Below, piece after piece: positions 879 to 30,004 of a stretch of 32,338 bases of DNA. The number at the start of each line of letters is the position of its first letter. The first letter of the stretch is position 1. Source of the DNA: a bacterium (GTDB lineage Bacteria; Vulcanimicrobiota; Xenobia; Xenobiales; JADMJV01). Location of the stretch: assembly GCA_030149525.1 (NCBI GenBank), contig JASBRJ010000002.1:1-32338 (forward strand), in the 5' to 3' direction. A model generated the notes under the pieces. That model had not been told where the DNA came from and ran no database searches. It worked only from the letters and a program-made list of their open reading frames with translations. The position numbers and the translations under genes are program-made.

Positions 879-964
879 CAACTTTCGGAGTGATCTTGGT
901 CACCCTCAGCCCCCAAGACCCCCCTCCCAAAGGAGCCCTCTCCCCCCACGCGAAGGCCTCCTTT

Positions 965-3523: not shown

Positions 3524-5373
3524 AGAGTTTTAAAGACGCCTTCGGCCTGCTTCAAAAGATCGGTAAGGCGGTTATGCTGCCGGTGTCGGTGTTGCCGGCT
3601 GCCGGTATTTTGCTTGGGGTGGGGAGTGCCGGCTTCAGCTGGTTACCCGCCGCCGTCTCCGAACTCATGGCAAAGTCCGGTAACGCGGTTTTCAGCAACC
3701 TTCCCCTCCTTTTCGCCATAGGCGTTGCCCTCGGGCTGGCCGCAGGCGACGGAGTAGCGGCCCTTGCGGCCACAGTCGGTTATGTTGTCCTCATCGCCAC
3801 ACTGGCCGTCATGGCCAATCTCAGGGGACTCGCTCCCGAGATCAGTGGCGACACCATGATGAGTGTGAAAGAACACGCTGCCGGTCAGTTTAGCGTTCTC
3901 ACCCGAGAGATAGACATTGTGGTCAAAGCCGGGCATATCGACACCGGCGTTATGGGTGGCATCCTGGTGGGCATTCTCGCCGCCTACCTCTTCAACAAGT
4001 ATTATCGAATTGAACTCCCGCCCTATCTCGGCTTTTTTGCCGGCAAGAGGTTCGTACCCATCGCCACTGCCTTCGCCTCTATCGCGCTGGGCGTGGTTCT
4101 CAGCTTCATATGGCCTCCCATCGGAAACGCCATTCAAGCCTTTTCCGATTGGGCCACCCAGGAGAGCACGACACTCGCCGTCTTCATCTATGGTGTGGTG
4201 GAACGATCCCTCATCCCGTTCGGTCTCCACCATATCTGGAATGTGCCTTTCTACTTCGAGATGGGTAGCTTCACCACACCGGCAGGAGAGGTGGTCCGCG
4301 GCGATATCTACCGCTTTGCCGCAGGCGATCCCACGGCCGGCATTCTGGGAGGTGGTTATCTCTTCAAGATGTGCGGACTCCCCGCCGCCGCCATGGCCAT
4401 TTGGCACACAGCCAAACCGGAGCGTCGCAAGCAGGTAGGCGGCATCATGATTTCGGCCGCTCTCACCTCTTTTCTCACCGGCATCACCGAGCCCATCGAG
4501 TTTTCATTTATGTTTGCCGCCCCGTTGCTCTATGCGCTTCACGCCTTTCTGGCCGGGACAGCATTCGCCACCTTCTATCTTTCAGGCGGCCTTATCGGCA
4601 CCAACTTTAGCCATGGCCTCATCGACTACATCATTCTCTCTCCCCGTGCCACGAAACCCGGGATGGTGATTCTGCTGGGTCTTGTCTACGCCGCCCTCTA
4701 CTACACCCTCTTCCGCTTCTGCATCCAATACTTCAACCTGAAAACTCCGGGCCGCGAAGAAGTCTCTGCTGAAGCCGCCGGTGCGGAAATGGGCTCCGAC
4801 GATTTCAGTCGCCTGCTGGTTCTAGCCTTCGGCGGACGCAGCAACATCACAGCCCTCGATGCCTGTATCACTCGACTTCGAGTCACCGTTTCCGACCCCG
4901 CCCTGGCCTCCAAGGCCAAGCTGAAAGGTCTCGGAGCCTCCGGAGTAGTGACAGTAGGCGACAACCTTCAAGCCATATTCGGCCCTCGATCCGAAAATCT
5001 GAAGTCGGCTATGGAAGCTTACTTGAAGACTGCCGGAGACGAGGCCGAACTCAGCGAAGACGATAAACAAGCGCTGGAAACTCAAGCGGCCGTGATCGCT
5101 GTGGTGGAACACCAAACCACCGAAGACCCTCTGGCGGCTGAAAAAGCAGAAAAGTGGGTAAAAGCGCTGGGTGGGTCCAACAACCTCAAAGAGATTGGAG
5201 CCTGCGCCGTCACCCGTGTTCGAGTGTGTGTGAAAGAAGCGGACAAAGTGGACAAGATGAGATTAGAGTCAGACGGGGTACAGGCGGTTATGCCCCTGGC
5301 CGACAATACGTTTCATCTTATCGTCGGTCCGGCAAGTGAACAGTACGCTCGGGAGATGAAGAGACAGAATTAG
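3520..5373 (+). CDS. PTS glucose/N-acetylglucosamine-type permease, IIC-IIB-IIB
   Basis: Membrane permease that imports and phosphorylates a hexose, taking phosphate from the upstream fusion protein. Residues 1-405 form a hydrophobic IIC domain with family motifs: FGLHHIWN near 234-241 and [17 protein letters not shown] from 321. A first IIB domain (about 428-503) has its phospho-cysteine C449 in [11 protein letters not shown] linker of about 40 residues leads to a second IIB domain (about 544-617) that also keeps a cysteine, C562, in [10 protein letters not shown]. Known family members usually carry one IIB, with or without IIA. Here the IIA lies in the upstream gene, so two genes encode a whole PTS. 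The GTG start overlaps the upstream stop by 4 nt. The IIC motifs fit glucose or GlcNAc; which one is not decidable here. Confidence 0.93.
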
Positions 5374-5398: not shown

Positions 5399-7039
5399 AT
5401 GAGCCCACAATCTCGTACCATAAGGCTGTTCCACAACCCCACCGGGGCGGAACTTAACGTTGAGGTTAAGTCCGACGGCTTGATCATTGGTCGAAGCAGT
5501 AAAGTGGCCGATCTCACCTGCACCTGGGACAACAAAATGTCTCGACGCCACGGCAAGGTGTGGCTGGAGGGCGGTGACGTCTGGTATGAAGATCTGGGCA
5601 GCTCCAACGGGAGTTGGGTAAACAAGGGCCGGGTGACCGAAAAGGTCAAGGTGGAAGGCGACATGCTCATCCTCATCGGTGAGACAAGCCTCACCCTAGT
5701 CTCCAACAACGACGAGCAAACCGTCACCGACGGCGAGCCCACTCAAGACGGAATGACCGTCCAGGCCGGTCACCGAGTGAGCCGGGCCGACTTTGCCAGC
5801 GCTCTCTCCGAGGCCAGTCAACGGGCGGAATTGCTGGACACCCTCACCCAGTTCGTCAACCAACTTCTTGGCGCGGCCAATTTCACGGAGATCGCCCCGT
5901 GCCTTCGCTCTCTCTATCGTCACCTCCCCACGGCCAAGCATATCTACCTGATCCGGCCACCCTCCGCCGACGATTCCATCATCCACCTCATCGAACCGGA
6001 ACTGCTCGCTCGCGACAGCGGCGACGAAGTGGGCACGGTTTCGCGAAGCTTAGCACGAATGGCCATAGAACGGGGGGAAGCGCTCCTCTTCTCCCAGGCC
6101 GACAACCAGACTCAGGAGATTCAGGAAAGCACGCGATTACGGGGCATCCACTCCGCCGCCTACGTTCCGCTCTTAAGCAAGGCAGGCGATCCCCTGGGCG
6201 TCTTGTGTGTGGACAGTCCGCTCTCCCATCTGCCTCTACACGAAGAAAACCTCACCTTACTCAAGTCCGCGGGAGCGCTTCTCTCCGCTCGGATCGATGG
6301 GGAAAGCCTACGCCAGGAGGCCCAACAGAAAGAAGTTCTGGCTCGAGAAGCCGACGCCCGAAAAGAGGCGCTGGCGAGCTTTCTCAAGATTGCAAGTCAC
6401 GACCTCAAGAACCCCCTCACAGTGGTCAAAATGTGTGGTGTTCTCATCAGCCGGATGACCGATAGTGGAACCGTGGCCGATCTGTGTGAACGCCTGCTAG
6501 ACGCGGAACGACGTGCCGAACAGCTCATTTCTACCTACCTGGAAGTCTCGGAACTCCAATCTACCGCCAGTCTGACAGTCAAGAAAAAGGCCGTCTCCGT
6601 CCATGATCTCATCGAACGAGAATTTCAGTTCTTAGAGAAAGCCATGCAACGGAAGAATAAGGCCATCGACTTTCGTAATCAGGTGGCCGAAAGTGTCATC
6701 GTCTCCGCCGATCCCCAGAAACTGCAGCAGATCATCAACAATCTGATCGGCAACGCCATCAAGTACGGTCGGGAAGAGAACCCCAGAGTCGAGGTCAAGT
6801 GCGACTCTCACGAGGAGCACTTTATCATCAGTGTGACCGACAACGGGGTGGGCATTTCGGAGGAAGACCAGAAAAAACTTTTCGCTCAATTCCAACGGGT
6901 AGGAGACACACAGCACCTCCCCGGGACAGGGCTCGGACTTTGGTTATCCAACCTACTGGTTCAAGCCCATGGGGGCGAAATGTGGGTAGAGTCCGAACCC
7001 GGATGGGGTTCAACATTCTTCTTCTCTTTACCCAGATGA
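5399..7039 (+). CDS. Cytoplasmic histidine kinase with FHA and GAF domains
   Basis: Signal-transducing histidine kinase without membrane segments. An FHA domain (about 8-103) carries GRSS (31-34), SRRH (48-51) and SSNG (68-71), the residues that read phosphothreonine. A GAF-like domain follows (about 145-300), then a short coiled linker, HisKA with phospho-acceptor H334 (SHDLKNP) and HATPase_c with N452 (NNLIGNAIKYG), the DNGVG box at 481-485 and GTGLGL at 509-514. AAGGA lies 6 nt before the ATG. The gene follows the PTS permease by 25 nt and precedes a Ser/Thr kinase by 21 nt. An FHA module next to a Ser/Thr kinase suggests, by inference, that the FHA domain docks a phosphothreonine made by that neighbour. 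No response regulator is encoded nearby. Confidence 0.92.
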   Translation: MSPQSRTIRLFHNPTGAELNVEVKSDGLIIGRSSKVADLTCTWDNKMSRRHGKVWLEGGDVWYEDLGSSNGSWVNKGRVTEKVKVEGDMLILIGETSLTLVSNNDEQTVTDGEPTQDGMTVQAGHRVSRADFASALSEASQRAELLDTLTQFVNQLLGAANFTEIAPCLRSLYRHLPTAKHIYLIRPPSADDSIIHLIEPELLARDSGDEVGTVSRSLARMAIERGEALLFSQADNQTQEIQESTRLRGIHSAAYVPLLSKAGDPLGVLCVDSPLSHLPLHEENLTLLKSAGALLSARIDGESLRQEAQQKEVLAREADARKEALASFLKIASHDLKNPLTVVKMCGVLISRMTDSGTVADLCERLLDAERRAEQLISTYLEVSELQSTASLTVKKKAVSVHDLIEREFQFLEKAMQRKNKAIDFRNQVAESVIVSADPQKLQQIINNLIGNAIKYGREENPRVEVKCDSHEEHFIISVTDNGVGISEEDQKKLFAQFQRVGDTQHLPGTGLGLWLSNLLVQAHGGEMWVESEPGWGSTFFFSLPR

Positions 7040-7060
7040 TAAAAGCGGGCAAGACTATCG

Positions 7061-10000
7061 GTGGCAGAGCAGGAAACTAAACAAACTCACGTCGTTCTGG
7101 GGGTGAGTCCGGGGGAGATCGTTGACGGACGTTTTGAGATCATCGATCTCATCGGCTACGGTGGTCAGGGTGTGGTGCTCAGAGTTCGCCACTTGGAGTG
7201 GGACACCACTCTGGCCCTCAAGCTTCCTCTCCCCAATGTGGTCAAATCACCGGCCAACAAGCTTCGCTTTTTGCAAGAGGCGGAAACCTGGATTCGTCTT
7301 GGTGTTCATCCAAACATCGTACGATGCTGGTTCGTTCAGGATATCGCCGGGCTACCCGGACTCTTCCTAGACCTTATGACCGGCGGGTCTTTGGAAGACA
7401 AAATCAAGGATCGCTCCGTCCTCTCGCTCTCCTGGGATGGTTTCATCACCATTTTGTTACAGATCGCCGAGGGGTTGGCCCACTCCCACTCCATGGGTGT
7501 TGTTCACCGCGATCTCAAGCCGGAAAATCTTCTCTTGAGAGAAGACGGCAGAGTTTGTCTCACCGACTTTGGATTGGTCAAGAGCTTCGCCTCCGATCAC
7601 CACGACGGCGAGACCAGTGGTGAAATGCCCAAAGACTCCTCGGTCACCGGTTCCGGTATCTTTTTAGGAACCCCTCGGTACGGAGCCCCGGAACAGTGGC
7701 GAAAAGATATGAAAATCGGTCCCACAACCGACATCTACTCTTTTGGCGTCCTCTTCTTTGAAATGCTCTGCGGTCGACGCCCCTTCGACGGTCCTGGGGA
7801 GAACCCCGACCCGATGAGTCTTATCGATCGCCACCTCACCACACCCCCACCGGACCCACGAACCTTCCGTCCGGATATCCCCAAGGAACTTGCCGCTTAC
7901 TGCCTCAAGTGCTTGACGAAAGACCCGGCCGGTCGCCCCCAGAGCACGGACGAACTGATCGGAGACCTCTCGGTGCTCCTGCAGCAACTGAGTGGGAGAA
8001 CTTATCGAAGGCCCGCCCCTGTCCCGGGTGGAGACCGAGCCGACCTCCTCAACAACGCTGCCGTTTCTCTTTACTCTCTGGGTCAAGTGGAAAAGAGTCG
8101 GAAGCTTCTGGAAACCGGACTGATGCTGGAAGCCGGTCATCACAAGTGTCTTTACAACCTGGTCCAATTGGATCGACGAGAGAACAAGATCAGCACCAAA
8201 GAGTCGCTGCTCCGCCTTCGTCGAGCCAACGCCAAATTGGAACTGGCCCTTCTCTTCATTGAAGAAGCGATGGGTAAACAGGCCATCGATCTCATCGCCA
8301 CCATCCCCGAAGAAGAACGAAACGGTCTGCTTTACCGCACCGAGGGCGACGCCCACATGTATGCCGAAGAGTTCCTACCGGCACAAAAGGCCTATGAAAA
8401 GGCGCGTCGTCTCATGCCCAACGACCAACCGACCCGCATTCGTCGGCTCCTGGCCTCTACCGGGAAAACCTCCGGCGTCAACGGCGAGCTGTTCTTTCCG
8501 TCCACCGAAAGCTCGTATTCCAACCGGGCGCCGGACCCCGAACTCAATCTTGTCATGACCCACGACGGGCGACAGATGATCGGGATCAACGCCCATGAAG
8601 TTGTAGGGATGGACGTGACAACACGAGCTCTAGCCGATCAAGCTCAGCGGGAAAAGAACTCGACCCCACCCATAAAATGTTGGGTCAACAATGATCGCCT
8701 GGTGGTCCAGGACAGATACGGTTTCGAGTTTTGGAGTCTGGAAGTCTTCAAACTCCTCAAGCGCACTCCCGGCCGCGTTCTCGCAGCGACCAGCAATCTT
8801 CAAAGGATGGTTCTGCTCCAACAAGACGGTCTCATCTATGTGGACAAAGCCAGCAACAAGATGTCCGGTCTCAAATTCCCACCGGGGACACCGCCCTCAG
8901 CCCATGTGAAAGCCGCCTTCACGCCCGACGGGCAGGGGCTTTGTATTCTCACCCCAACGGGGAAAATCGGTCAAGTGGACGGCGACTTCAACGTGGTTCA
9001 TCTGGAATGGCCTCCGCCGCTCAAAAATTTCTCCGAAATGGCCTGTTTTTCCATCGGCTCAGACGGCAACATCTACCTCGCCACCCGCGAAGGTAAAATG
9101 AAAGCGTTCAATATTCATGCCAAGAAAGGCGTGTTCAGCTTCCAGGTGCCGTTCCAACCTCAAGAGATGGAATTGGATATCACCAGCAATACCCTGGTGG
9201 TGACGTCCGAGCGATTCTGCGGCATTTTCAGCAAAACCGGCAAACTGCTCCATCGTGGAGAGGGCCCCTGTGCTGTGGACTTTCAGAAAGAGCACGCCCT
9301 GACATGGGTGAACGGGTATCTCACCCTCTTTAAGCTGTATCCCTTTCGCAAGATCCGTGCCTTCTCCGAGCGGATTCCCCGACCTCGACAGATCGCTTTC
9401 AGCAACAATGGACGGCGGGCTGTCACCCTGGACCCCACAGGCGAGCATCATGTCTGGGAAGTGGACGAAGAGCACCGCGTCTACGAACGAAGCCTTTTGC
9501 TTACACCCGGTGAGTCCTATCAGCAACTGATCACCTCATTCGACTCCTATCTACGCTCTTTCAATCACTCCCTGGAACTCTTTCGCCAGGGTAAACTCTA
9601 CGACTGCTACCGAAAGCTCTCGGAGGCGCGCTCGGTAGCCGGATTCTCTCAAGCGGAGGAGGCCCTGGAGCTGCAATGGGAGCTTTGTCGGCGACTCAAA
9701 CGTGGCAAGATGGAGGCGATCTGGGAGCGATACTATGCCTCCGAAACCACCTTCGGCTGCCTTCTCCCCACCGACGACACCATCGTCTTATCCGACTCGA
9801 GAGGCCTCCATCTCCATAAATTCACGGGCATGTCGGCCTCTCCCCGATACTCGGTTCCCGAAGCCAAAAACACCGTTCTTGCCGGCCTCTATCCGATCCC
9901 CGAGCAGGGGACCTACCTCATGGCGGTGAGCGATTCTGGAAATATCTTCTACCTCAACCCCGCCGACGGTGCCCTTCTCCATCGCGTGGATCTCGAGATG

Positions 10001-10684
10001 GGCCCGGTGAGATCGGCTCACCTCATCCACGACTCCATTTTTCTCTTTTTTAACTCAGGTGCCGTCTCTTTCTACGATCTCACCACTTCGTCGCTGGCCG
10101 GCACCCTTTCCATGGAAGGCTTCCAAGTGTTCAGGGCCTTTCCCGTGGGCAAGGGGCGCGCTCTTCTCATGACAGATCGCGGACATGTTATGGGTGATGT
10201 GGCCAAACAGACCCTGGAGCCCGGTCTTCCTCTTTCCCTTACGGAATTGCCGGGTGAGGTGACTTTCGCCGTGGAGGAGCCGGAGCGGGGACTGGCTATG
10301 TTGGGTTTCTCCGACGGAACCCTTATGGTCGGTTCGGTGAAAAACCGACGGGTGGTTTTCGGCGTGAAACAGACTCTTGGAGCGGTGACCGGTGCCTCTC
10401 TGAACTTCGCCATGAATGTGGGAATCAGTGTGAGCGCCAAAGGTGGACTCACCCTTTTCGATCTCACCAGCGGCGAGGTGTTCGAACGCTTCACGGCCCA
10501 TTCCGATGCAGTCACCTCCGTCGTGATGCAGGAGAATGGGCGCTACCTCACCACCTGCACCGCAGGCGGCCAATTCCGGCTGTGGGAGCTTTCCTGGCTA
10601 CTTGAGAACTCCACTCATCGGGAATCGGCGAGCTGGCTTCCCACCAGCGCTTTCAGACGCTTAGGCAAGATCTTCAAGTTATAG
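7061..10684 (+). CDS. Giant Ser/Thr protein kinase with helical-repeat and beta-propeller regions
   Basis: Eukaryote-like protein kinase of 1207 residues. The kinase domain (about 25-315) is complete: glycine loop GYGGQG (32-37), K54 (ALKLP), HRDLKPEN with D151, DFG with D169, and APEQ in the activation segment. Residues about 325-470 look like TPR-type helical repeats. The remainder, apart from a helical stretch near 820-880, has two long runs of WD40/PQQ-like strands, probably two beta-propellers, the last blade ending in FRLWELSW. No signal peptide or membrane segment is visible, so it is likely cytoplasmic. The GTG start has no strong ribosome binding site and probably relies on coupling to the gene 21 nt upstream. 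It is the last gene of the PTS-kinase operon and overlaps the convergent PilC-like gene by 6 nt. Substrates are unknown; the neighbouring FHA kinase is a candidate partner. Confidence 0.9.
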   Translation: MAEQETKQTHVVLGVSPGEIVDGRFEIIDLIGYGGQGVVLRVRHLEWDTTLALKLPLPNVVKSPANKLRFLQEAETWIRLGVHPNIVRCWFVQDIAGLPGLFLDLMTGGSLEDKIKDRSVLSLSWDGFITILLQIAEGLAHSHSMGVVHRDLKPENLLLREDGRVCLTDFGLVKSFASDHHDGETSGEMPKDSSVTGSGIFLGTPRYGAPEQWRKDMKIGPTTDIYSFGVLFFEMLCGRRPFDGPGENPDPMSLIDRHLTTPPPDPRTFRPDIPKELAAYCLKCLTKDPAGRPQSTDELIGDLSVLLQQLSGRTYRRPAPVPGGDRADLLNNAAVSLYSLGQVEKSRKLLETGLMLEAGHHKCLYNLVQLDRRENKISTKESLLRLRRANAKLELALLFIEEAMGKQAIDLIATIPEEERNGLLYRTEGDAHMYAEEFLPAQKAYEKARRLMPNDQPTRIRRLLASTGKTSGVNGELFFPSTESSYSNRAPDPELNLVMTHDGRQMIGINAHEVVGMDVTTRALADQAQREKNSTPPIKCWVNNDRLVVQDRYGFEFWSLEVFKLLKRTPGRVLAATSNLQRMVLLQQDGLIYVDKASNKMSGLKFPPGTPPSAHVKAAFTPDGQGLCILTPTGKIGQVDGDFNVVHLEWPPPLKNFSEMACFSIGSDGNIYLATREGKMKAFNIHAKKGVFSFQVPFQPQEMELDITSNTLVVTSERFCGIFSKTGKLLHRGEGPCAVDFQKEHALTWVNGYLTLFKLYPFRKIRAFSERIPRPRQIAFSNNGRRAVTLDPTGEHHVWEVDEEHRVYERSLLLTPGESYQQLITSFDSYLRSFNHSLELFRQGKLYDCYRKLSEARSVAGFSQAEEALELQWELCRRLKRGKMEAIWERYYASETTFGCLLPTDDTIVLSDSRGLHLHKFTGMSASPRYSVPEAKNTVLAGLYPIPEQGTYLMAVSDSGNIFYLNPADGALLHRVDLEMGPVRSAHLIHDSIFLFFNSGAVSFYDLTTSSLAGTLSMEGFQVFRAFPVGKGRALLMTDRGHVMGDVAKQTLEPGLPLSLTELPGEVTFAVEEPERGLAMLGFSDGTLMVGSVKNRRVVFGVKQTLGAVTGASLNFAMNVGISVSAKGGLTLFDLTSGEVFERFTAHSDAVTSVVMQENGRYLTTCTAGGQFRLWELSWLLENSTHRESASWLPTSAFRRLGKIFKL

Positions 10685-11782
10685 ATTCTTAATCAGCTCC
10701 ATGAGCGGCAGCATAGTGGCGATAATGAAAATGGCCACGGTGATCCCCATAAACAGCATGGCCAGAGGCTCCATGGCAGCCAGAATGCCTCGGGCTCGAT
10801 ATTCAAGCTCTGTTTCGTAAAGCACCACGATCTTGGATAGAACATCAGAGAGCGACCCCGCCTCCTGCCCTAAACTCACGCTGCTGATAAAGGTGGCGGG
10901 AAAGAAATCGGTCTCTGCAAGAGCCTCATCGAGTCTGGAACCGTTGATCATGGCTTGAATGGCCCCTGGCATGCGGCGCTTCAAAATGGGGTCGCCTGCC
11001 GCATTGCCCGCCAATTTGAGAGCCTGGGTAATGGGCACACCCACCTCTGTCATCAACTCCAGACAGCGAGAGAATCGGCAGGTGGCAAGCGCCGTGAGTT
11101 GACGCCTGAGAAAACTGTTGGAGTGGAGAAAAAGAAAGAGCTTGTACTGACTGGCCGGGCTCTCCACCATCTTTATGATGGTTCGAATAACAAAGAAGCC
11201 CACCACAACGGCACCAAGGTAGAAAAAGGGACTGGCCACCATCTTGGAGAGCCTCAGAACGACCCGGCTAATGAGAGGAAGCTCCACCCCTGACGATTCC
11301 ACCAACGAAAAGAGTTCGCCGAACAGAAACGGTGGAACCCACAGCACAAAAATGACGCAGATTACCAGAATCCAAATGGGATAAATGAGGGCCTGTTTGA
11401 AAAGAAGGGAAGTCTGATAGCTCTTCTCTTCATATTCGGAGAGCCGGCTCATCACCTGAGGCAGGGCGCCGGCCGCTTCGGCCACTTCAATAGTTCGCCG
11501 GCAGTGATCGCTAAAGAGGTATGGGAACTCTTTCACCGCGAAACTGAAAGAAACACCGGAGAGAATTCTCTCTTCAATCTTCTCCAGGGCGTATTTGAGT
11601 TGCTTATTCTGGACCTGGTCTCGCAGAATCCGCAAACTCCGGGGCAAACTCAAACCCGCCTGAAAAAGCACCTGCAAGCTCCTAAAGAGAAGCGCGCGCT
11701 CGCGAATCTTGACCTGCCCAATCACCATTGCCGGAGATCTTCGAGAAACCCCGGCTTGTTCCGTCTGCCTAACGGAATTCAT
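10679..11782 (-). CDS. PilC/GspF-family inner-membrane platform protein
   Basis: Inner-membrane platform of a type IV pilus or type II secretion machine, which couples the assembly ATPase to pilin polymerisation. The 367-residue product has two T2SSF repeats (about 30-152 and 233-355), each with a family glycine motif: EVAEAAGAL near 99-107 and GQEAGSL near 305-311. Three hydrophobic segments lie at about 134-156, 187-203 and 338-358. I start it at the ATG at 11782; extending in frame to 11980 would add a basic, low-quality N-terminus lying over the start of the divergent gene. Full-length relatives are about 400 residues, so the N-terminus is slightly short. No assembly ATPase is encoded in the window. 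The stop overlaps the convergent giant kinase gene by 6 nt. Confidence 0.9.
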   Translation of the reverse strand: MNSVRQTEQAGVSRRSPAMVIGQVKIRERALLFRSLQVLFQAGLSLPRSLRILRDQVQNKQLKYALEKIEERILSGVSFSFAVKEFPYLFSDHCRRTIEVAEAAGALPQVMSRLSEYEEKSYQTSLLFKQALIYPIWILVICVIFVLWVPPFLFGELFSLVESSGVELPLISRVVLRLSKMVASPFFYLGAVVVGFFVIRTIIKMVESPASQYKLFLFLHSNSFLRRQLTALATCRFSRCLELMTEVGVPITQALKLAGNAAGDPILKRRMPGAIQAMINGSRLDEALAETDFFPATFISSVSLGQEAGSLSDVLSKIVVLYETELEYRARGILAAMEPLAMLFMGITVAIFIIATMLPLMELIKNL

Positions 11783-11816
11783 GATTGAACCAAATAACCT
11801 CAAGGCTCCAATTTTG

Positions 11817-11825
11817 TGGTATCTT
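11817..11825 (+). promoter_or_regulatory. Extended -10 promoter candidate, probably giving a leaderless mRNA
   Basis: TGGTATCTT matches the extended -10 pattern TGNTATNNT. The hexamer ends at 11825, 6 nt before the ATG at 11832, so a start about 7 nt downstream would fall on the A of the ATG. No Shine-Dalgarno sequence is present before this ATG, which agrees with a leaderless transcript. No good -35 was found. Confidence 0.4.
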
Positions 11826-11831
11826 TGTCTT

Positions 11832-13760
11832 ATGGGTTTTCGCTTTGTTCTCAACCGTCTTCGTTCCAACGGCATGACGATAGGCACGGTACTGCTGCTG
11901 GTGACAGTCGGTTCGCTTGCCGTTTTCACCATGGTGGCCATGGCGTTTTTCCACATGCGGTTCAGCAATGTGGTGGTCAATCAACGGAGCGCGCGAAACA
12001 TCGCTGAATCGGCTCTCTCTACCGCCCTAACCAAGATTTGGGAAAGTGATAAGTACGGCGTCACCCGAGATACCCTCGACACGATTCACATCACCTCCAC
12101 AACCGATGAGGCCGCCGAGGGCTTTCTCGCTTTCAACGAGGCCGACGCCAACAGGTTAGGCGTGCCCTACTCCACCAACAACTTCGAGTCGGAAAAAGCG
12201 GTCGAAGGAGGCAACGGCCGCACCATCCCAGACAGCACCGTCCACCTGGTAGCCGTGGGCAAATGTCGAGGAGCCCAATACAAAGCCGAAGTTCTCTACT
12301 ACGTGCCCCCATATCCCAACGCCCTGGCTTCCAGCGGTCCGGTGGTTTCCACAGGCGGTCTCCTGGTGGCGGGCATTCCAACGGTGGAGAAAGCTGCCGC
12401 CATGGGCCCGAGCGGGATCGAAGTGGACAAATTGGAACCGGGACACATTCTTTCCAACGCCAAAGGCAAGAAAGCGATCTATCTCGGGCCGAGTTCGTCG
12501 GTTCGCGGAGACGTGGTCGCAGTCGGTGGCATCGAGGTGATCACCCCCACCGATATTCAGGGCGAAGTCCGGCCTAACGCCTCTCCCCAAACCGTCCCGA
12601 ATCTCAACGTCGACGATGTCTTCACTCGCCTCGACAGCATCGAAACTCGAGACAAGATTACGGCTCCCACAGTGGCCGACGGGCATGTGGTGGACTACTT
12701 CACGGAAGCGGCCGCCCCCCTCACCGTCAAGGGCGATCTCTTGCTCGACGGCGGGGTTCTCTACTGCCGCGACGACCTCAATGTTCAGGGGAAAGTCACC
12801 GGCAACGGTGCCATCTTCTCTTTAGGCGACGTGAAGATCGACGGCGGAGCCGATCTTTCCGCCAAAGATCAGGTCGCCGTGGTTGCCAAAGGCGCTCTTG
12901 AACTCCACGGAACCTCCAAAGATTCCCAATTTTTCAACGGTCTGATCTACTCGGAGTCCGAGATTCTTGCCAGCGACATCACCATCATCGGAGCGGCCGT
13001 GGTCAACGGTGACGACAAGAGTCCGTTGGAATTAGACAACGTCACCCTGGTCAAAACTCCCCTGGCTGTGAGCATGGTGATCGGAACGCCCTCTAAGCCC
13101 TCTTTCGATGCCGCCGTCCTCAAATCAGGCAATAAGAAGGATAAAATCGGATTAACCGGCATCCTGGGCGGCTCCAAGACAAGCTATTCCTACTCTCCTC
13201 CCGACACTGAGTCGACCCTTAAGTCAACCCTGGCCGGAGGTCTTCAAATTTCCGGGTTTCAAATGCCCAAAGTGGATGGCGAAGTCAAATACTCTTTACT
13301 CTATGAGGGCGTCTTCAGCCGGGCCATCGGTGGTCTGAAAACGATTGGCGATCTTACTCCCGACGAGCAAGCGGCCCTAGAACTCGACACCCGCCGCCAC
13401 TACTTCGCCGGAGATAACCTCTACATCCGCTACGACCGACTCACCGGAGTCAACAGAGAACAGGCTCAAAGCGCCTACAATACTCTCAAGACTCAGCTTG
13501 AGTCGGTTCTGCCGAGCCCTGTGAGCTACAGCATCGTGGAAAAGAAGAAGAAACGCATTCTCTTTTTCTCCAGCAGCAAAACCAAAAAGACACCGGCGGT
13601 CTTCGATCCGGCGGAAGGTCTGGTTTTGGACGTGGATGGGTTTCTGGACACCCTCAGAGAGCCCCGCACCAAGAAAGGCCCTACTTTCATCGATCTCAAT
13701 CTCAATCAGGTTTTCGACCCGGCTGAGACCTCAAAAATTCTGCTCTGGAAGAGTTTTTAA
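11832..13760 (+). CDS. PilX-like pilus-associated protein with beta-rich middle
   Basis: The N-terminus has a short basic segment, then SNG followed by a hydrophobic run MTIGTVLLLVTVGSLAV, which resembles the class III prepilin/PilX signal but lacks the usual Glu at +5. An amphipathic helix follows (VNQRSARNIAESALSTAL), as in PilX proteins. Residues about 210-400 contain short glycine-rich strand repeats (for example VKGDLLLDGG, VQGKVTGNG, LGDVKIDGG), suggesting a beta-helix or bactofilin-like stack. The C-terminal third is polar with a Lys-rich patch near 570-590. The ATG at 11832 is chosen because the signal starts there; an in-frame upstream extension would overlap the divergent PilC-like gene. 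It is probably a minor pilus or secretion component anchored in the inner membrane. The 3' end overlaps the convergent kinase gene by 30 nt. Confidence 0.7.
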   Translation: MGFRFVLNRLRSNGMTIGTVLLLVTVGSLAVFTMVAMAFFHMRFSNVVVNQRSARNIAESALSTALTKIWESDKYGVTRDTLDTIHITSTTDEAAEGFLAFNEADANRLGVPYSTNNFESEKAVEGGNGRTIPDSTVHLVAVGKCRGAQYKAEVLYYVPPYPNALASSGPVVSTGGLLVAGIPTVEKAAAMGPSGIEVDKLEPGHILSNAKGKKAIYLGPSSSVRGDVVAVGGIEVITPTDIQGEVRPNASPQTVPNLNVDDVFTRLDSIETRDKITAPTVADGHVVDYFTEAAAPLTVKGDLLLDGGVLYCRDDLNVQGKVTGNGAIFSLGDVKIDGGADLSAKDQVAVVAKGALELHGTSKDSQFFNGLIYSESEILASDITIIGAAVVNGDDKSPLELDNVTLVKTPLAVSMVIGTPSKPSFDAAVLKSGNKKDKIGLTGILGGSKTSYSYSPPDTESTLKSTLAGGLQISGFQMPKVDGEVKYSLLYEGVFSRAIGGLKTIGDLTPDEQAALELDTRRHYFAGDNLYIRYDRLTGVNREQAQSAYNTLKTQLESVLPSPVSYSIVEKKKKRILFFSSSKTKKTPAVFDPAEGLVLDVDGFLDTLREPRTKKGPTFIDLNLNQVFDPAETSKILLWKSF

Positions 13761-15032
13761 AGCTAGTCGGACATCGGTCAAGTCGGCGTAGCGCTTGGCC
13801 GGCTCCTTCTCCAGCATCGTCAGGATAAGCTCGCACAGTTCGTCGGACAGGGCGGCGTTGTAAACCCGGGGACTTGGTGGCTCCTCAATCAGATGTTTGG
13901 TAATCGTTTGCATCATGTCCTCGCACTCGAAAGGCAACCTGCCGGTGAAAATCTGGAAAGCGACTACACCGAGAGCGTATTGGTCCATGGAGGCTGAAGG
14001 CGGTTCGCCCTGAATCTGTTCAGGGGCCATGTAGGCCGGTGTTCCCATGACGGCCCCCGTCACCGTCACGGTCTTAATATTTCGAACCTTGGCCAGACCG
14101 AAGTCGGAAATCTTCACTTTGCCGCTCTTGGTCATCATGATATTGTCGGGCTTTAAGTCGCGGTGAGTGACTCCCTGAGCGTGAGCAAACTCCATTCCGG
14201 CCAGAATCTCGTCGAAGATTCGAAGCCCTTCTGGAATGGGAAGTCCGCCCTCGGTAATTCGATCCTCAAGGGTCCCCCCGTCCACCAACTCCAAAGCCAA
14301 GTAGATCAGCTCGTCGTTCATGCCCCAGTCGTGCAGAGCCACGATATTGGGATGGAACAGCTTCTGACAGATCTGAACCTCTCGCTTGAACCGCTCCACC
14401 GTGCTCTCGTCATCGGTGGCGGACAGCACCTTGACCGCCACATGTTCACCCGTTTTGTGGTCGTCACCGGTGACTCCGCGGTAAACCACAGCCATGCCCC
14501 CTTTGCCCAAGAAGCCGGTGAGAAGATAGTTACCCAACCGTTGGCCGAGCGCCGTGTCTTTGGAGACGACAGCTTTGCTCTTGAGCTCGTCGAAGAAGGC
14601 CACTTGCTCTTCTTTCTTCTCCTCAAGCACTCTGAGACGCCGAACGATAGGCCGTGCGACAGCGGCCACGATACCTAGAAAGACGAGAGTGAACGCCCCC
14701 TTCAGAGGCCACCCGGCAGAAAGAGAAATCTTCTGGCCGCGCAAAGGGTAGACTCCGGAATTCAGCTCCTTCTCCGATAGTGCCATAGTAATGGACTGAT
14801 AACCGGCGGCTCGGAAGCGAAACTCCATAAACTTCGGCGCCTTGAAACTCAAAGGTTCATTGGCCGGTCCCACATAGTTTTCATCGGCCATATCGTTCAT
14901 CATATAGACCTTGGTATGAGGCGGCCAACAGTTGAAGGTCACTGTCTTTGTCTCGCTTTCGTCGGCGGCCACAGAAACGCCGAGGGAAAGGAGCATGAGC
15001 ATCATTATGAGATTCTGGAAACGTTTTTTCAC
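13731..15032 (-). CDS. Membrane Ser/Thr protein kinase with secreted PEGA-like sensor
   Basis: A transmembrane Ser/Thr kinase of 433 residues. A signal peptide (about 1-23, ending VSVAADE) is followed by an extracytoplasmic beta-rich segment (about 28-105) resembling PEGA domains, with the FRAAGYQSI pattern near 73-81. A membrane helix at about 111-128 and a Lys/Glu-rich coiled linker lead to a complete kinase domain (about 168-430): GKGGMA glycine loop, K201, HRDLKPDN with D292, DFG with D310, and APEQ. The predicted topology puts the sensor outside and the kinase in the cytoplasm. The GTG start overlaps the upstream prepilin stop by 4 nt, so it is co-translated with the prepilin operon. This suggests it senses or controls pilus assembly; that is inference. 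Confidence 0.9.
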   Translation of the reverse strand: MKKRFQNLIMMLMLLSLGVSVAADESETKTVTFNCWPPHTKVYMMNDMADENYVGPANEPLSFKAPKFMEFRFRAAGYQSITMALSEKELNSGVYPLRGQKISLSAGWPLKGAFTLVFLGIVAAVARPIVRRLRVLEEKKEEQVAFFDELKSKAVVSKDTALGQRLGNYLLTGFLGKGGMAVVYRGVTGDDHKTGEHVAVKVLSATDDESTVERFKREVQICQKLFHPNIVALHDWGMNDELIYLALELVDGGTLEDRITEGGLPIPEGLRIFDEILAGMEFAHAQGVTHRDLKPDNIMMTKSGKVKISDFGLAKVRNIKTVTVTGAVMGTPAYMAPEQIQGEPPSASMDQYALGVVAFQIFTGRLPFECEDMMQTITKHLIEEPPSPRVYNAALSDELCELILTMLEKEPAKRYADLTDVRLALKTLPEQNF

Positions 15033-15640
15033 AGCTGATTACGCAAAGACACAGTTCGTATCAATTCAAAGGATCGCATTCCCGACTCGGCCTGCTCTCG
15101 CATTTTTATTCGAGCTAGGAGCGGCATCTGCACGAGAGTACCCGAGCCGGAGTGGGTGAACTCGAAATCCTCAACATTTCGGGCCACCACCCGCCCGTCG
15201 ACCGCGTAGTTCTCGGCTTGGGTCAGTTCCGTGGGAGTCAGCTTACGGGGGCCGTCCACACTCGGGTCGGAGCCGTTTCTCCAACGGAAACGCTTGATCA
15301 CACCACTGGCCTTATCGAATTTGTAAACGATGAGATGATCCGCATAGACCCGCTCCCCGGTAGGCGTGACTTCCTCAACGGGATGGACAGCCACTGCCGG
15401 AACACCCGGAGAAAAGCTGATTCCGAAAAGATTACTCCTCTCCATCTCTCCCACCATCTGCCGCAGGGCGAGGGTTCCCCCCTGTTGAGATTCCGCTCGG
15501 AGAGTGGTTCTTGAGGAGATCTTCAAGGCCGGCACCAAGAATTGATAAGCCAGACCCAATAGCAAAACAGCCAGGGTGAACCCAACAAGCAGTTCGACCA
15601 GGGTCATGCCCCGTTTCTGATTTATGGCAGGCTGATACAC
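15029..15640 (-). CDS. Prepilin-type N-terminal protein, PilW/GspJ-like
   Basis: A minor pilin or pseudopilin of 203 residues. The type III signal is clear: a short polar leader, then KRG followed by MTLVELLVGFTLAVLLLGL, with Glu at +5 of the predicted mature protein, so prepilin peptidase should cut after the Gly. After the long N-terminal helix the protein is beta-rich and has the pattern of PilW/GspJ members (VDGRVVARNVEDFEF, then LLARIKM near the C-terminus). The GTG start lies 2 nt after the upstream prepilin stop, and the stop overlaps the kinase start by 4 nt. It is the middle gene of a three-gene operon read from 16062 to 13731. Whether the machine is a pilus or a type II secretion system cannot be decided here. 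Confidence 0.88.
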   Translation of the reverse strand: MYQPAINQKRGMTLVELLVGFTLAVLLLGLAYQFLVPALKISSRTTLRAESQQGGTLALRQMVGEMERSNLFGISFSPGVPAVAVHPVEEVTPTGERVYADHLIVYKFDKASGVIKRFRWRNGSDPSVDGPRKLTPTELTQAENYAVDGRVVARNVEDFEFTHSGSGTLVQMPLLARIKMREQAESGMRSFELIRTVSLRNQL

Positions 15641-15642
15641 AT

Positions 15643-16062
15643 CTAACGCTTCTGGTTGAAAATCCTCAGTTCGTAGCTTAAAGACTGATTCTTTTGCCGC
15701 TCCGCCCAGGTGACTTTGACTTTAGCTAGCTTTATGTAATCCGACCTGGTCCCGGCGATGTCTTCCACCTGAGTCTCGACCTTGAATTGGGTCGAGCCCC
15801 GTCTCTCGGTTCGAACTCTCCCGTTGGCCGCCGCCAGATCGGAAAACGCACCGCTTCTCAACGTCTCCAATTCGTTCTGGGCAATATTGCTGGCCGAAAG
15901 ACGATTCTCCGCCCTTAGGGAGGCAAGAGTTGAGGAGGGGATGAGATTGAAGAAAATCGCCACCATAATCGACAACAAGCCGAAAGCTACGATCACTTCA
16001 ATAACGCTGAACGCGCGTCTGCCCTCCGATATCGGTTGCATACGACCCCTTTCTCCCGTCAT
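15643..16062 (-). CDS. Prepilin-type N-terminal protein, PilV/GspI-like
   Basis: A minor pilin or pseudopilin of 139 residues, first gene of the prepilin-kinase operon. The leader ends RRA and is followed by FSVIEVIVAFGLLSIMVAIF, a class III signal with Glu at +5; the residue before the cut is Ala rather than the usual Gly, which prepilin peptidases can accept. The remainder has the short IAQNELETLRSG helix typical of PilV/GspI and a beta-rich tail. GGGAGG lies 5 nt before the ATG at 16062, which decides this start over an in-frame TTG 6 codons upstream. No GspH/FimT-type partner or major pilin lies next to it, so other components must be encoded elsewhere. Confidence 0.88.
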   Translation of the reverse strand: MTGERGRMQPISEGRRAFSVIEVIVAFGLLSIMVAIFFNLIPSSTLASLRAENRLSASNIAQNELETLRSGAFSDLAAANGRVRTERRGSTQFKVETQVEDIAGTRSDYIKLAKVKVTWAERQKNQSLSYELRIFNQKR

Positions 16063-16145
16063 TTCGACCTCCCGGAGCAACCTTCCTTACCCGGCGCGGC
16101 ACTTTCCCATTGGGGCAATGTTGAATAATAAATTTGTTACACCGA

Positions 16146-26679: not shown

Positions 26680-26711
26680 GAGCAGTTATCGAGAGTCTGC
26701 CTCATGTTTCT

Positions 26712-26729
26712 AGGAGGATACCGGTGTAA
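26712..26729 (+). promoter_or_regulatory. Strong ribosome binding site feeding a GTG-TAA start-stop
   Basis: AGGAGG (26712-26717) is the best ribosome binding site near the hybrid kinase gene, but the correctly spaced start codon 6 nt downstream, GTG at 26724, is followed at once by TAA at 26727. That GTG is in the same frame as the kinase ORF, whose next start is the GTG at 26754, 10 codons later and without its own Shine-Dalgarno sequence. It could be a start-stop element with reinitiation, or a damaged 5' end of the kinase gene. Confidence 0.5.
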
Positions 26730-26753
26730 GCTGGAAATGCCCCTCATGCGCCA

Positions 26754-29700
26754 GTGTGGGGACAGAGTTTGAGTCGGCTTCCTGAGCGATTCCGTGTGGA
26801 TAGCGAACTCGGACGCGGTGGAATGGGCATTGTTTACAAGGCCTTTGATTCCGCCTTCGGTCGAGAGGTGGCGGTCAAGGTTCTCCCTGAGCAAGTCGAT
26901 CACGACGAACTGCTTTATCGTTTTCGTCGAGAAGGCACGGATCTGGCCGGGCTCAATCATCCCAACGTGGTCGCCTGCTATGAGTTCGGCGCCCACAACG
27001 GCCACGACTACATCGTCATGGAGTACGTCGCCGGCGGAAATCTTCGAACCTTTGCCCGAAGCTCCGACAGTCTCGCCGACATTGTGGCGGCCTACATGGC
27101 CATCTGCAACGGCCTGGAGCACATTCACTCCCAGGGGATTGTTCACCGAGACGTCAAGCCGGGCAATATTCTTTTCACCACCGACGGCATCCCCAAAATC
27201 ACCGACTTCGGAATCTCCCGTCGCATGGATTCCGAAACCCAACTCACTCAAGTGGGCACTATCATGGGCACAAGCTCCTTCGTAGCCCCGGAGATGATCT
27301 TGAGTAGCTCCTCGGTCACCCCGTCGGCCGATCTTTACGCCCTCGGTGTTTGTCTTTTCGAATCTCTCACCGGCAAACTTCCCATCACCGGAGAAACGGA
27401 ATACGCCGTTCTCAACGCCCACCTCAACGAGAAACCGGCTAAGCCCTCCGAGCTGCGCCCGGACGTGCCGCCGATGCTCGACGACATCGTCCTCCAACTG
27501 CTGGCCAAGAAGCCCGAGGAGCGCCCTTCCAGCGCCAACGAGGCCGCTCGACTCTTGCAAGAGTGTCTTCAGAACTCGCTCAACATCAAGCCACCGGATT
27601 TTCTTACCGAAGACGACGAACCCACCGAACCCACTGCCACCGGCCAGTATCTGGAGGGTTTGATCACCATCGACACTCAGGGCAAAATCGAATCTTGCAA
27701 TCCCGACGCCGCCGCTCTGCTCGGCCGCGCCAGCACCGAGCTGTTCGGCCAACCGGTGGATCGCTTCTTGCCTAAAATGCGGGTACTGGCTAAGAAAGGT
27801 CAGAAATTTACCGGTGAAACTTTCGTCATGGAAGGTCGGCGCCGAGTCGATCAACCGATTCCCCTGGAGGTCACTCTCACCGCCACACAAAGCGCCCGGG
27901 GACCTCAGCTCAACGCGGTGATCAAAGCCACCGAACAGGACAACCCGGAAACCGCCGCCTCCGAACTCTTAAGAGCGGGACAGTTCGACTTTCTCAACCG
28001 CATGAGTCACGAGGTGTGGACTCCCATGAACGGGATCCTGGGCATGACCCGCCTCACCCTCAACACCGATCTCACCACCGAGCAAAGAAAGTATCTCAAA
28101 GACTTGGAGACCAGCGCCGAGCGCCTCCGAGAAGTTCTGGGCACGGCCATGGATTTCTCCCGTCTGGGCGACGGAACGCTCCACTTAGAGCCTGTTCCCA
28201 TCGATGTTCGCCAGTTCGTGGAATCGGTCCTCAAGCCGTACATCTTCCAGGCCAAGGCAAAGAATCTTCAGCTCTCTATTCAGGTGGCGCCCCTGGTTCC
28301 CGACACCATCGTGGCCGACCCGGCCCGCCTCAAGCAAGTTCTGGGCCATCTTCTCGACAACGCTCTGAAGTTCACCGACAAAGGCCACATAGGTGTCACC
28401 GTCGACCGCCAATCCGGCGACGATCATGTGGTCACCCTGAAATTCGCCGTCTCCGACACCGGTCAAGGGCTTCTGCCCGGGCGAGAAAAGCTCGTCTTTC
28501 GACCTTTCTACCAAGAAGATTCTTCCATTTCCCGAAAAACCGGCGGTGTTGGGCTCGGACTCGCCATCGTCAAGGGCTTGGTCAGCAAGATGAACGGTCG
28601 AGTGTGGGTCGACAGCCAGCGCGGTCGAGGTTCTGTCTTTCAATTTGTGGCCGACTTCGGCGTCGCCGAACGACCTCACGAGACCTCCTACCGCAACCGC
28701 ATGGGAAGTCTCAAGGTTCTCCTCCTCGACCCAGGGCGACAGTATCAGACCGTGGCCAACCTCCTCAAACGATGGGGTCTTGAAGTCTCCGTAGGTCACG
28801 AAGTGGGCGAGTCGGGCAAAGCCATCGAGCAAGCCAGAACAGACGGAGAGCCGTTCGATCTCGTCCTTGCCGAAGCTCACGGCGTTTACTTCGACGCCTT
28901 CAATTTCGTTCGGAACTATAAGCTTTCCAACGAGGCCTTCGTTCTCTTCACCCGGGAAATCCAGGACGGAGATGCTCAGAAGTGTCGCCTTCTCGGTGTG
29001 GATTCGCTGCTGGAGAAGCCGATCAACGCCACCGAGCTTTGGGAGTGCGTGCACAAGGTTCTCAACAACGGCCCCCGCAGTCGAAGCGCGAGTTTCGGCA
29101 GTCTTCGCATACTGCTTGCCGAGGATAACCCGGTCAACCAGACCCTGGCCACCGTCCTCCTCAAGTCACGAGGCCATGAGGTCACCGTGGCAGGCGACGG
29201 TCTGCAAGTTCTCAAGCAGTTGGAAGAGAAAGAGTTCGACTTCATCCTCATGGATCTTCAGATGCCCCAGATGGACGGCATCACCACTACCAAAAAGATC
29301 CGAGCAGACGAAGAAGGCAGTGGCCGGCGCATCCCCATCGTGGCGTTGACCGCCCACACCCAGGCGGGCTCACTGGAAAAATGTCTGGAAGCCGGAATGG
29401 ACGGCTTTCTCAACAAACCGATTGAGGAAGACGAACTGATGGATGTGATCGCCCGGGTGGTGGATCGCAGCACTCGCATGGATATCGCCGAGGAGGCCCC
29501 GCCGTCTCGCTCCGACAACGAGCCCACCTACGTCCCCGCTCCGAAACAGGCAGAGGCGGCCCCGCCGGTGGTCAGCGATACCGAGACCACCAACTACAAC
29601 GTCATCGACGAAAAAATGTTCCTCAACCGGATCGGCCACAACAGTCAGAATCTCTGCACCCTGGTGGACATCTTCCTCACTCTCTACGGGGAACAGCTGC

Positions 29701-29948
29701 AAAATATCAAAAAAGCCATCGATGCCGGTGATCCCGAGGCGTTGCGCCAATCCGCTCACAAGTTCAAAGGATCGGTGGCCAACTTCAGTGCCAAAGCGGC
29801 CGCCGAACAAGCCGAAGCCCTGGAAGAGTTGGGACGAGCCGGAACCACCATGGGAGCCGAGAGCGAGTATGTGGCCCTGGTACGCGAAACCGAAATCCTC
29901 ATCATCGCCTTGAAATCATTAAAAGAGCGCCACACCGGTAAGGGGTGA
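26754..29948 (+). CDS. Ser/Thr kinase-PAS-histidine kinase-REC-REC-HPt fusion
   Basis: One chain of 1064 residues joins a eukaryote-like kinase to a whole phosphorelay. Ser/Thr kinase (about 12-272): GRGGMG (20-25), K42, HRDVKPGN with D133, DFG with D151, and VAPE. PAS-like (about 297-392). HisKA with H419 (SHEVWTP). HATPase_c with N536 (LLDNALKF), SDTGQG (567-572) and GVGLGL (598-603). A first receiver (about 652-770) lacks the phospho-Asp, with E707 in its place, but keeps the Lys. A second receiver (about 783-903) is canonical: AEDN (789-792), D834 (LMDLQMP) and the Lys in NKP. HPt domain (about 948-1060) with H1002 (AHKFKG). No membrane segment is seen, so it is probably cytoplasmic. The GTG start is uncertain because the ribosome binding site lies further upstream, before a stop. 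The last codons form part of a terminator and of an 88-bp direct repeat. Confidence 0.9.
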   Translation: MWGQSLSRLPERFRVDSELGRGGMGIVYKAFDSAFGREVAVKVLPEQVDHDELLYRFRREGTDLAGLNHPNVVACYEFGAHNGHDYIVMEYVAGGNLRTFARSSDSLADIVAAYMAICNGLEHIHSQGIVHRDVKPGNILFTTDGIPKITDFGISRRMDSETQLTQVGTIMGTSSFVAPEMILSSSSVTPSADLYALGVCLFESLTGKLPITGETEYAVLNAHLNEKPAKPSELRPDVPPMLDDIVLQLLAKKPEERPSSANEAARLLQECLQNSLNIKPPDFLTEDDEPTEPTATGQYLEGLITIDTQGKIESCNPDAAALLGRASTELFGQPVDRFLPKMRVLAKKGQKFTGETFVMEGRRRVDQPIPLEVTLTATQSARGPQLNAVIKATEQDNPETAASELLRAGQFDFLNRMSHEVWTPMNGILGMTRLTLNTDLTTEQRKYLKDLETSAERLREVLGTAMDFSRLGDGTLHLEPVPIDVRQFVESVLKPYIFQAKAKNLQLSIQVAPLVPDTIVADPARLKQVLGHLLDNALKFTDKGHIGVTVDRQSGDDHVVTLKFAVSDTGQGLLPGREKLVFRPFYQEDSSISRKTGGVGLGLAIVKGLVSKMNGRVWVDSQRGRGSVFQFVADFGVAERPHETSYRNRMGSLKVLLLDPGRQYQTVANLLKRWGLEVSVGHEVGESGKAIEQARTDGEPFDLVLAEAHGVYFDAFNFVRNYKLSNEAFVLFTREIQDGDAQKCRLLGVDSLLEKPINATELWECVHKVLNNGPRSRSASFGSLRILLAEDNPVNQTLATVLLKSRGHEVTVAGDGLQVLKQLEEKEFDFILMDLQMPQMDGITTTKKIRADEEGSGRRIPIVALTAHTQAGSLEKCLEAGMDGFLNKPIEEDELMDVIARVVDRSTRMDIAEEAPPSRSDNEPTYVPAPKQAEAAPPVVSDTETTNYNVIDEKMFLNRIGHNSQNLCTLVDIFLTLYGEQLQNIKKAIDAGDPEALRQSAHKFKGSVANFSAKAAAEQAEALEELGRAGTTMGAESEYVALVRETEILIIALKSLKERHTGKG

Positions 29949-30004
29949 CGCTCTTCGTTGCTCGGGGAGCTTAAGGTCTTATCTTAGAGAAAACCGCTAT
30001 TGGT
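29917..30004. repeat. 88-bp perfect direct repeat, left copy
   Basis: Identical over all 88 bases to 32251-32338. It covers the last codons and stop of the hybrid kinase gene, the terminator hairpin at 29923-29955, and the 3' end of the convergent 54-codon ORF. The base before each copy differs (T here, A at 32250); the right limit is set by the window end, so the true repeat may be longer. Confidence 0.95.
29923..29955 (-). terminator. Intrinsic terminator overlapping the end of the hybrid kinase gene
   Basis: AAGAGCG pairs with CGCTCTT, continued inward by CAC/GTG and CC/GG around a short loop. Read on the minus strand, the stem is followed by a T run (CTCTTTTAATG), as expected for a terminator of the AlbA operon. 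On the plus strand the T run is poor, so it ends the kinase transcript less well. The plus-strand hairpin includes the kinase stop codon. Confidence 0.7.

Follow-up and report, generated by a model that had tools for sequence, protein, structure and literature searches.

We find that one gene (26754-29948, forward strand) in the 32,338-nucleotide stretch of DNA analyzed here, hereafter called the window, encodes a 1064-amino-acid protein in which a Ser/Thr kinase is joined to PAS, HisKA, HATPase, pseudo-receiver, receiver and HPt domains, an assignment that draws on the open reading frame, Pfam matches and a check of individual residues. Every residue needed by an active Ser/Thr kinase and by a His419-Asp834-His1002 relay is present. 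The fusion is not unique to this gene. With slightly better than even confidence, we interpret the protein as a soluble Ser/Thr kinase that senses through its PAS domain and whose activity would be set by the phosphorylation state of the fused His-Asp-His relay.

Seven domains in one reading frame

The gene is a single intact open reading frame with a GTG start codon and no internal stop codons. A frameshift splitting the gene, which the original prediction had raised as a possible flaw, is ruled out because the whole coding region lies in one open frame. The exact start is uncertain: no clear ribosome-binding site precedes the GTG at 26754, a strong AGGAGG sequence at 26712-26717 runs instead into a GTG-TAA just 5′ of the gene, and a TTG at 26769 is an alternative start that would leave the domains unaffected. 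Another frame at about 26726-26783 (within 26711-26783) reads VSWKCPSCASVGTEFESAS, which resembles a zinc ribbon. An N-terminal zinc ribbon (CPSC) was nevertheless ruled out, since this frame lacks a start codon and the relatives described below carry no such ribbon.

Pfam matches were judged by curated cut-offs, above which the Pkinase, HisKA, HATPase_c, Response_reg (786-899) and Hpt models all score, and an AlphaFold model of the protein has a mean pLDDT of 81.8. The N-terminal Pkinase match (amino acids 14-261; 26793-27536; 8e-54, 183 bits) carries the residues that define Hanks-type kinases, namely the VAxK lysine (K42), D133 and N138 of HRDxKxxN, the DFG aspartate (D151) and the APE glutamate (E180). 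It is followed by a PAS domain (302-384; 27657-27905), for which PAS_9 reaches 28.8 bits against a cut-off of 27 when the segment is scanned alone and for which the AlphaFold fold is of low confidence. The HisKA dimerization and phosphoacceptor domain (412-474; 27987-28175) presents H419 within the H-box SHEVWTPMNG, where Trp422 stands in place of the Arg found in every sequence compared; because this conserved Arg is replaced, histidine kinase activity of the window protein is not certain. The HATPase_c domain (522-633; 28317-28652) has its N, G1, F and G2 boxes, including N536, DTGQG and GVGLG.

Two receiver folds come next, as had been predicted, but only one of them is a canonical receiver. 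The first (654-771; 28713-29066) matches Response_reg weakly (E=0.0047, 17.5 bits against a cut-off of 30.2) and shows (beta-alpha)5 topology in the AlphaFold model, strand 3 ending at Glu707. It retains K755, has D659-P660 instead of the acidic pair and has E707 in place of the phosphorylated Asp, and is thus a pseudo-receiver, leaving a single relay path through H419, D834 and H1002. The second (786-899; 29109-29450; Response_reg 2.5e-33) has the acidic pair E790/D791 along with D834, T866 and K888. The HPt domain (970-1037; 29661-29864) contains H1002, and one chain therefore holds all the residues that define a tripartite histidine kinase (H419, N536, DTGQG, GVGLG, D834 and H1002). The best curated NCBIfam match to the C-terminal half is BarA (equivalog NF008318; 382.9 bits against a cut-off of 890), followed by TorS and, lower in the ranking, ArcB, and we conclude that this half is of the BarA type, a tripartite histidine kinase lacking the BarA sensor, rather than BarA itself. 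Apart from the status of the first receiver, the predicted order of seven domains in one chain was borne out by the reading frame, Pfam and, for that receiver, AlphaFold, and the residues singled out in advance (K42, D133, D151, H419, E707, D834 and H1002) had all been identified correctly.

Live and lost residues among the relatives

Seven further genes that fuse a Ser/Thr protein kinase (STPK) to histidine kinase, receiver (REC) and HPt domains were found in the six genomes nearest to the window genome (G000). The other five genomes of the same family, which form a sister genus (G001-G005), have one each, and the sole genome of the next family (G006) has two. Their products are 573-802 amino acids long as read, two of them (L140 and L151) being cut by contig ends, and have the domain order of the window protein minus the PAS domain and the pseudo-receiver. 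A profile of the eight fusion proteins, applied to 149 genomes of the phylum, revealed no further full-length member in the other 142, and the window genome (8.27 Mb) gave no second fusion among the matches listed. The related contigs that were scanned held unfused histidine kinases only, G275 (from a phylum with more than 200 candidates per genome) gave no such fusion among the matches listed, and plasmid records yielded cyanobacterial hybrid multi-kinases, none of which covered 80% of the query at a single location. Among some 240 genomes from other phyla, no collinear fusion was found at E<=1e-95, a search that is no census, given that the best two candidates per genome were scored and that a collinear profile would split HstK-like proteins.

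These relatives also bear on whether the window gene could itself be an artifact, arising from a chimeric contig or from neighboring genes fused by annotation. The assembly is fragmented (398 contigs), and the last 83 bases of the contig (32256-32338) repeat 29922-30004, from the final codons of the fusion gene to past its end, which is probably an assembly overlap artifact. Against such an origin stand the single open frame and the recurrence of the domain order, minus the PAS domain and pseudo-receiver, in six other genomes, and we regard it as highly improbable.

The window protein is the only one of the eight fusions that keeps every catalytic residue. Wherever the gene covers them, the STPK lysine, HRD and DFG aspartates and APE glutamate are kept in all seven relatives, as are the acidic pair, Asp, Thr/Ser and Lys of the receiver in the six that reach this domain (6/6). 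Gln or Pro stands in for the HisKA phosphoacceptor histidine in 6/7, and the N-box Asn has disappeared equally often (6/7). The ATP-binding G1 box (DxGxG) of the HATPase domain is broken in 7/7, and the HPt histidine has become Gly, Ser, Glu or Trp in 6/6. Pfam still detects most of the folds. Furthermore, pairwise dN/dS values between close orthologues are 0.01-0.29 in each domain, the dead ones included, indicating that the dead domains are maintained by purifying selection and are not rotting. By the same measure the STPK is usually the most constrained domain, and the receiver evolves faster than the STPK.

Because the Ser/Thr kinase and the receiver are the conserved minimal unit of the family, we read its members as putative Ser/Thr kinases gated by Asp phosphorylation. 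On the best reading, signals would enter at the receiver and leave through the Ser/Thr kinase as the conserved output, a direction suggested by the pattern of conservation. Specifically, a PAS signal would lead the HisKA/HATPase dimer to autophosphorylate on H419, and the phosphate would pass to D834 and then on to, or back from, H1002, which would link the protein with other response regulators. Receiver state, together with that of the dimer core, would turn the N-terminal kinase on or off, and the main output would be phosphorylated Ser/Thr proteins. In the window species the relay could charge the receiver itself. The sister lineages would have lost their own histidine kinase chemistry, such that a separate HPt protein or kinase would have to charge the receiver while the dead HisKA, HATPase and HPt domains serve as a scaffold for dimerization and docking. 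The original prediction was that a Ser/Thr signal and a two-component relay gate each other; we retain the idea of coupling, although the relatives favor a receiver that controls the Ser/Thr kinase over symmetric cross-talk. To our knowledge, however, receiver control of an STPK has no direct biochemical precedent in bacteria.

Signals might run the other way if the Ser/Thr kinase is the input, phosphorylating sites in the linker, PAS or HisKA regions (or in partners) and so tuning a histidine kinase whose output leaves through H1002 for an external response regulator. Such an arrangement would suit the intact HPt domain and relay of the window protein and the N-terminal position of the STPK, which is where BarA-type kinases have their sensors, and PrkC, which is described as acting on the WalRK system (PMC12189002), offers a precedent. 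However, the relatives have lost the HPt histidine (6/6) and the G1 box (7/7) and have kept the STPK, and so an HPt output cannot be the conserved output of the family. As a result, we consider the Ser/Thr kinase an unlikely input. In the window protein, the retained HPt histidine does suggest that an external response regulator may be fed as well. We count this histidine, Trp422, the placement of the window kinase in the kinase tree (see below) and the faster evolution of the receiver as points against our preferred reading of a relay-controlled Ser/Thr kinase.

Origin and genomic setting of the fusion

In a tree of the HisKA-HATPase-REC parts, the eight fusions group together as a single clade (SH-aLRT 96), in which the window protein occupies a branch basal to the seven decayed ones, and we therefore regard the decayed forms as true relatives. 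The eight also form one clade when HisKA-HATPase is used alone (support 87), and do not in the best tree of the receiver alone. The kinase domains of the fusions all sit in an 18-member clade of kinases from the same order (support 100/100) that includes unfused kinases, among them some from the window genome. In the best kinase-domain tree the other fusion kinases are not the sister group of the window kinase, and a single fusion clade is not rejected (AU p=0.22). These trees are most simply read as a single ancient fusion event, after which the protein decayed in the sister lineages; exchange of the kinase domain in one of the lineages would also be compatible with them, as an alternative to a single origin. 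The closest unfused kinases (L130-L134, G000:C50 and G000:C105) are 45-50% identical and have long C-terminal regions, in which PEGA-like repeats can be recognized by eye in the two from the window genome (G000:C50 and G000:C105), a different type of output attached to kinases of this clade.

It is also conceivable that two independent modules share one chain with little direct coupling, given that domain shuffling is common in modular signaling genomes. In favor of this explanation, STPKs and hybrid kinases are very abundant in the window genome, and the fusions do not all group together in the kinase tree. Yet the fusion persists in 7/7 of the most closely related genomes (the window's included), with its dead parts under purifying selection, and the histidine kinase and receiver parts form one clade, leaving uncoupled modules with a rather low probability. 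Somewhat short of even confidence, we propose that a Ser/Thr kinase acquired an entire histidine phosphorelay, which the sister genera cut down to an Asp-switch and a scaffold; the outcome would be a Ser/Thr kinase gated by its receiver and accompanied by pseudo-forms of the HisKA, HATPase and HPt domains.

The neighbors of the fusion gene are an aldehyde dehydrogenase gene on one side and a convergent Schlafen-AlbA_2 gene on the other. No response regulator adjoins it among the neighboring ORFs checked in the window, a result that we count in favor of the relay-controlled Ser/Thr kinase, and no synteny was found between the window gene and its relatives. In 5/5 sister-genus genomes (L198, L199, L200, L201 and L204), the decayed fusion is immediately preceded on the same strand by a PilZ-domain gene, whose stop codon in G001 (gene at L198:9302-10036) overlaps the fusion start (TGATG). 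Neither G000 nor G006 yielded a close relative of this PilZ gene. Since c-di-GMP is a common ligand of PilZ proteins, this arrangement hints at a connection between the decayed fusions and c-di-GMP.

Other parts of the window also carry signaling genes. At 5399-10684, a gene for an FHA-GAF-histidine kinase is directly followed by a Ser/Thr kinase gene; the FHA domain could read phospho-Thr on the neighbor, which would make a second link between an STPK and a two-component system. Type II secretion or pilus-like genes (GspF-like, prepilin-like) at 10679-16080 surround a gene for a Ser/Thr kinase that looks membrane-anchored (13731-15032), and apparent PTS genes, as read from the sequence, occupy 890-5373 (a fused IIA-HPr-enzyme I followed by a IIBC-type permease).

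Comparison with known systems

What is known of how bacterial Ser/Thr kinases communicate with two-component systems comes mostly from cases in which the two are separate proteins, and here both occur in one chain. The eight fusions form a natural series, from the fully equipped window protein to forms with dead HisKA, HATPase and HPt domains and a conserved Ser/Thr kinase and receiver. This series suggests which parts the output needs, and coupling between Asp phosphorylation and the Ser/Thr kinase is testable with single-residue variants. The family is, furthermore, a phylogenetically bounded case of how pseudo-enzymes arise, pseudo-histidine kinases being a recognized class (PMC12632262).

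Fusions of Ser/Thr and His kinases, also with a receiver, are already known. An early HK-STYK was described in Spirulina (PMC1183210), and 38 cbSTKIII proteins, HstK among them, in cyanobacteria (PMC2176072, PMC1262709). The comparison with HstK in the original prediction was apt, since cbSTKIII proteins (HstK/Alr2258, Pkn40/41) share with the window protein an N-terminal Hanks kinase and a C-terminal HisKA-HATPase in one chain (PMC2176072, PMC1262709). They differ in having at least one GAF domain between the STK and HisKA domains (PMC2176072), where the window protein gives no GAF match and has PAS_9 instead. A large AAA_16 domain is present in the two cyanobacterial examples scanned and absent from the window protein, whose PAS, pseudo-receiver, receiver and HPt contrast with cbSTKIII proteins, for which no HPt or BarA-type tail is described in the studies cited. 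Neither feature was found in the described Ser/Thr-His kinase fusions compared here, cyanobacterial or fungal, and the expectation that no well-studied fusion also carries two receivers and an HPt held up, as no described protein with the seven domains was found. The Leptolyngbya protein BAY59659.1 (‘multi-sensor hybrid multi-kinase’) likewise has STPK, PAS, HisKA, HATPase and a C-terminal receiver in one chain, but is 2006 amino acids long, includes AAA_16 and GAF domains, and has one receiver and no HPt.

BarA, TorS, ArcB and EvgS have the same HisKA-HATPase-REC-HPt order. The window protein falls far below their equivalog cut-offs, however, and has a Ser/Thr kinase and PAS domain in the usual position of the membrane sensor. 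Fungal hybrid histidine kinases of groups X and XVI are known to include AAA/GAF parts, and degeneration of their kinase domain is frequent. They too combine a Ser/Thr kinase-related domain with a histidine kinase and a receiver (PMC4965123, PMC8510515), whereas in fungi the HPt is supplied by a protein of its own, Ypd1 (PMC8510515). Finally, fungal Rim15, although it lacks histidine kinase domains and its receiver Asp is often replaced in Ascomycota, resembles the window protein in being a Ser/Thr kinase with an attached C-terminal receiver that appears functionally important (PMC8510515).
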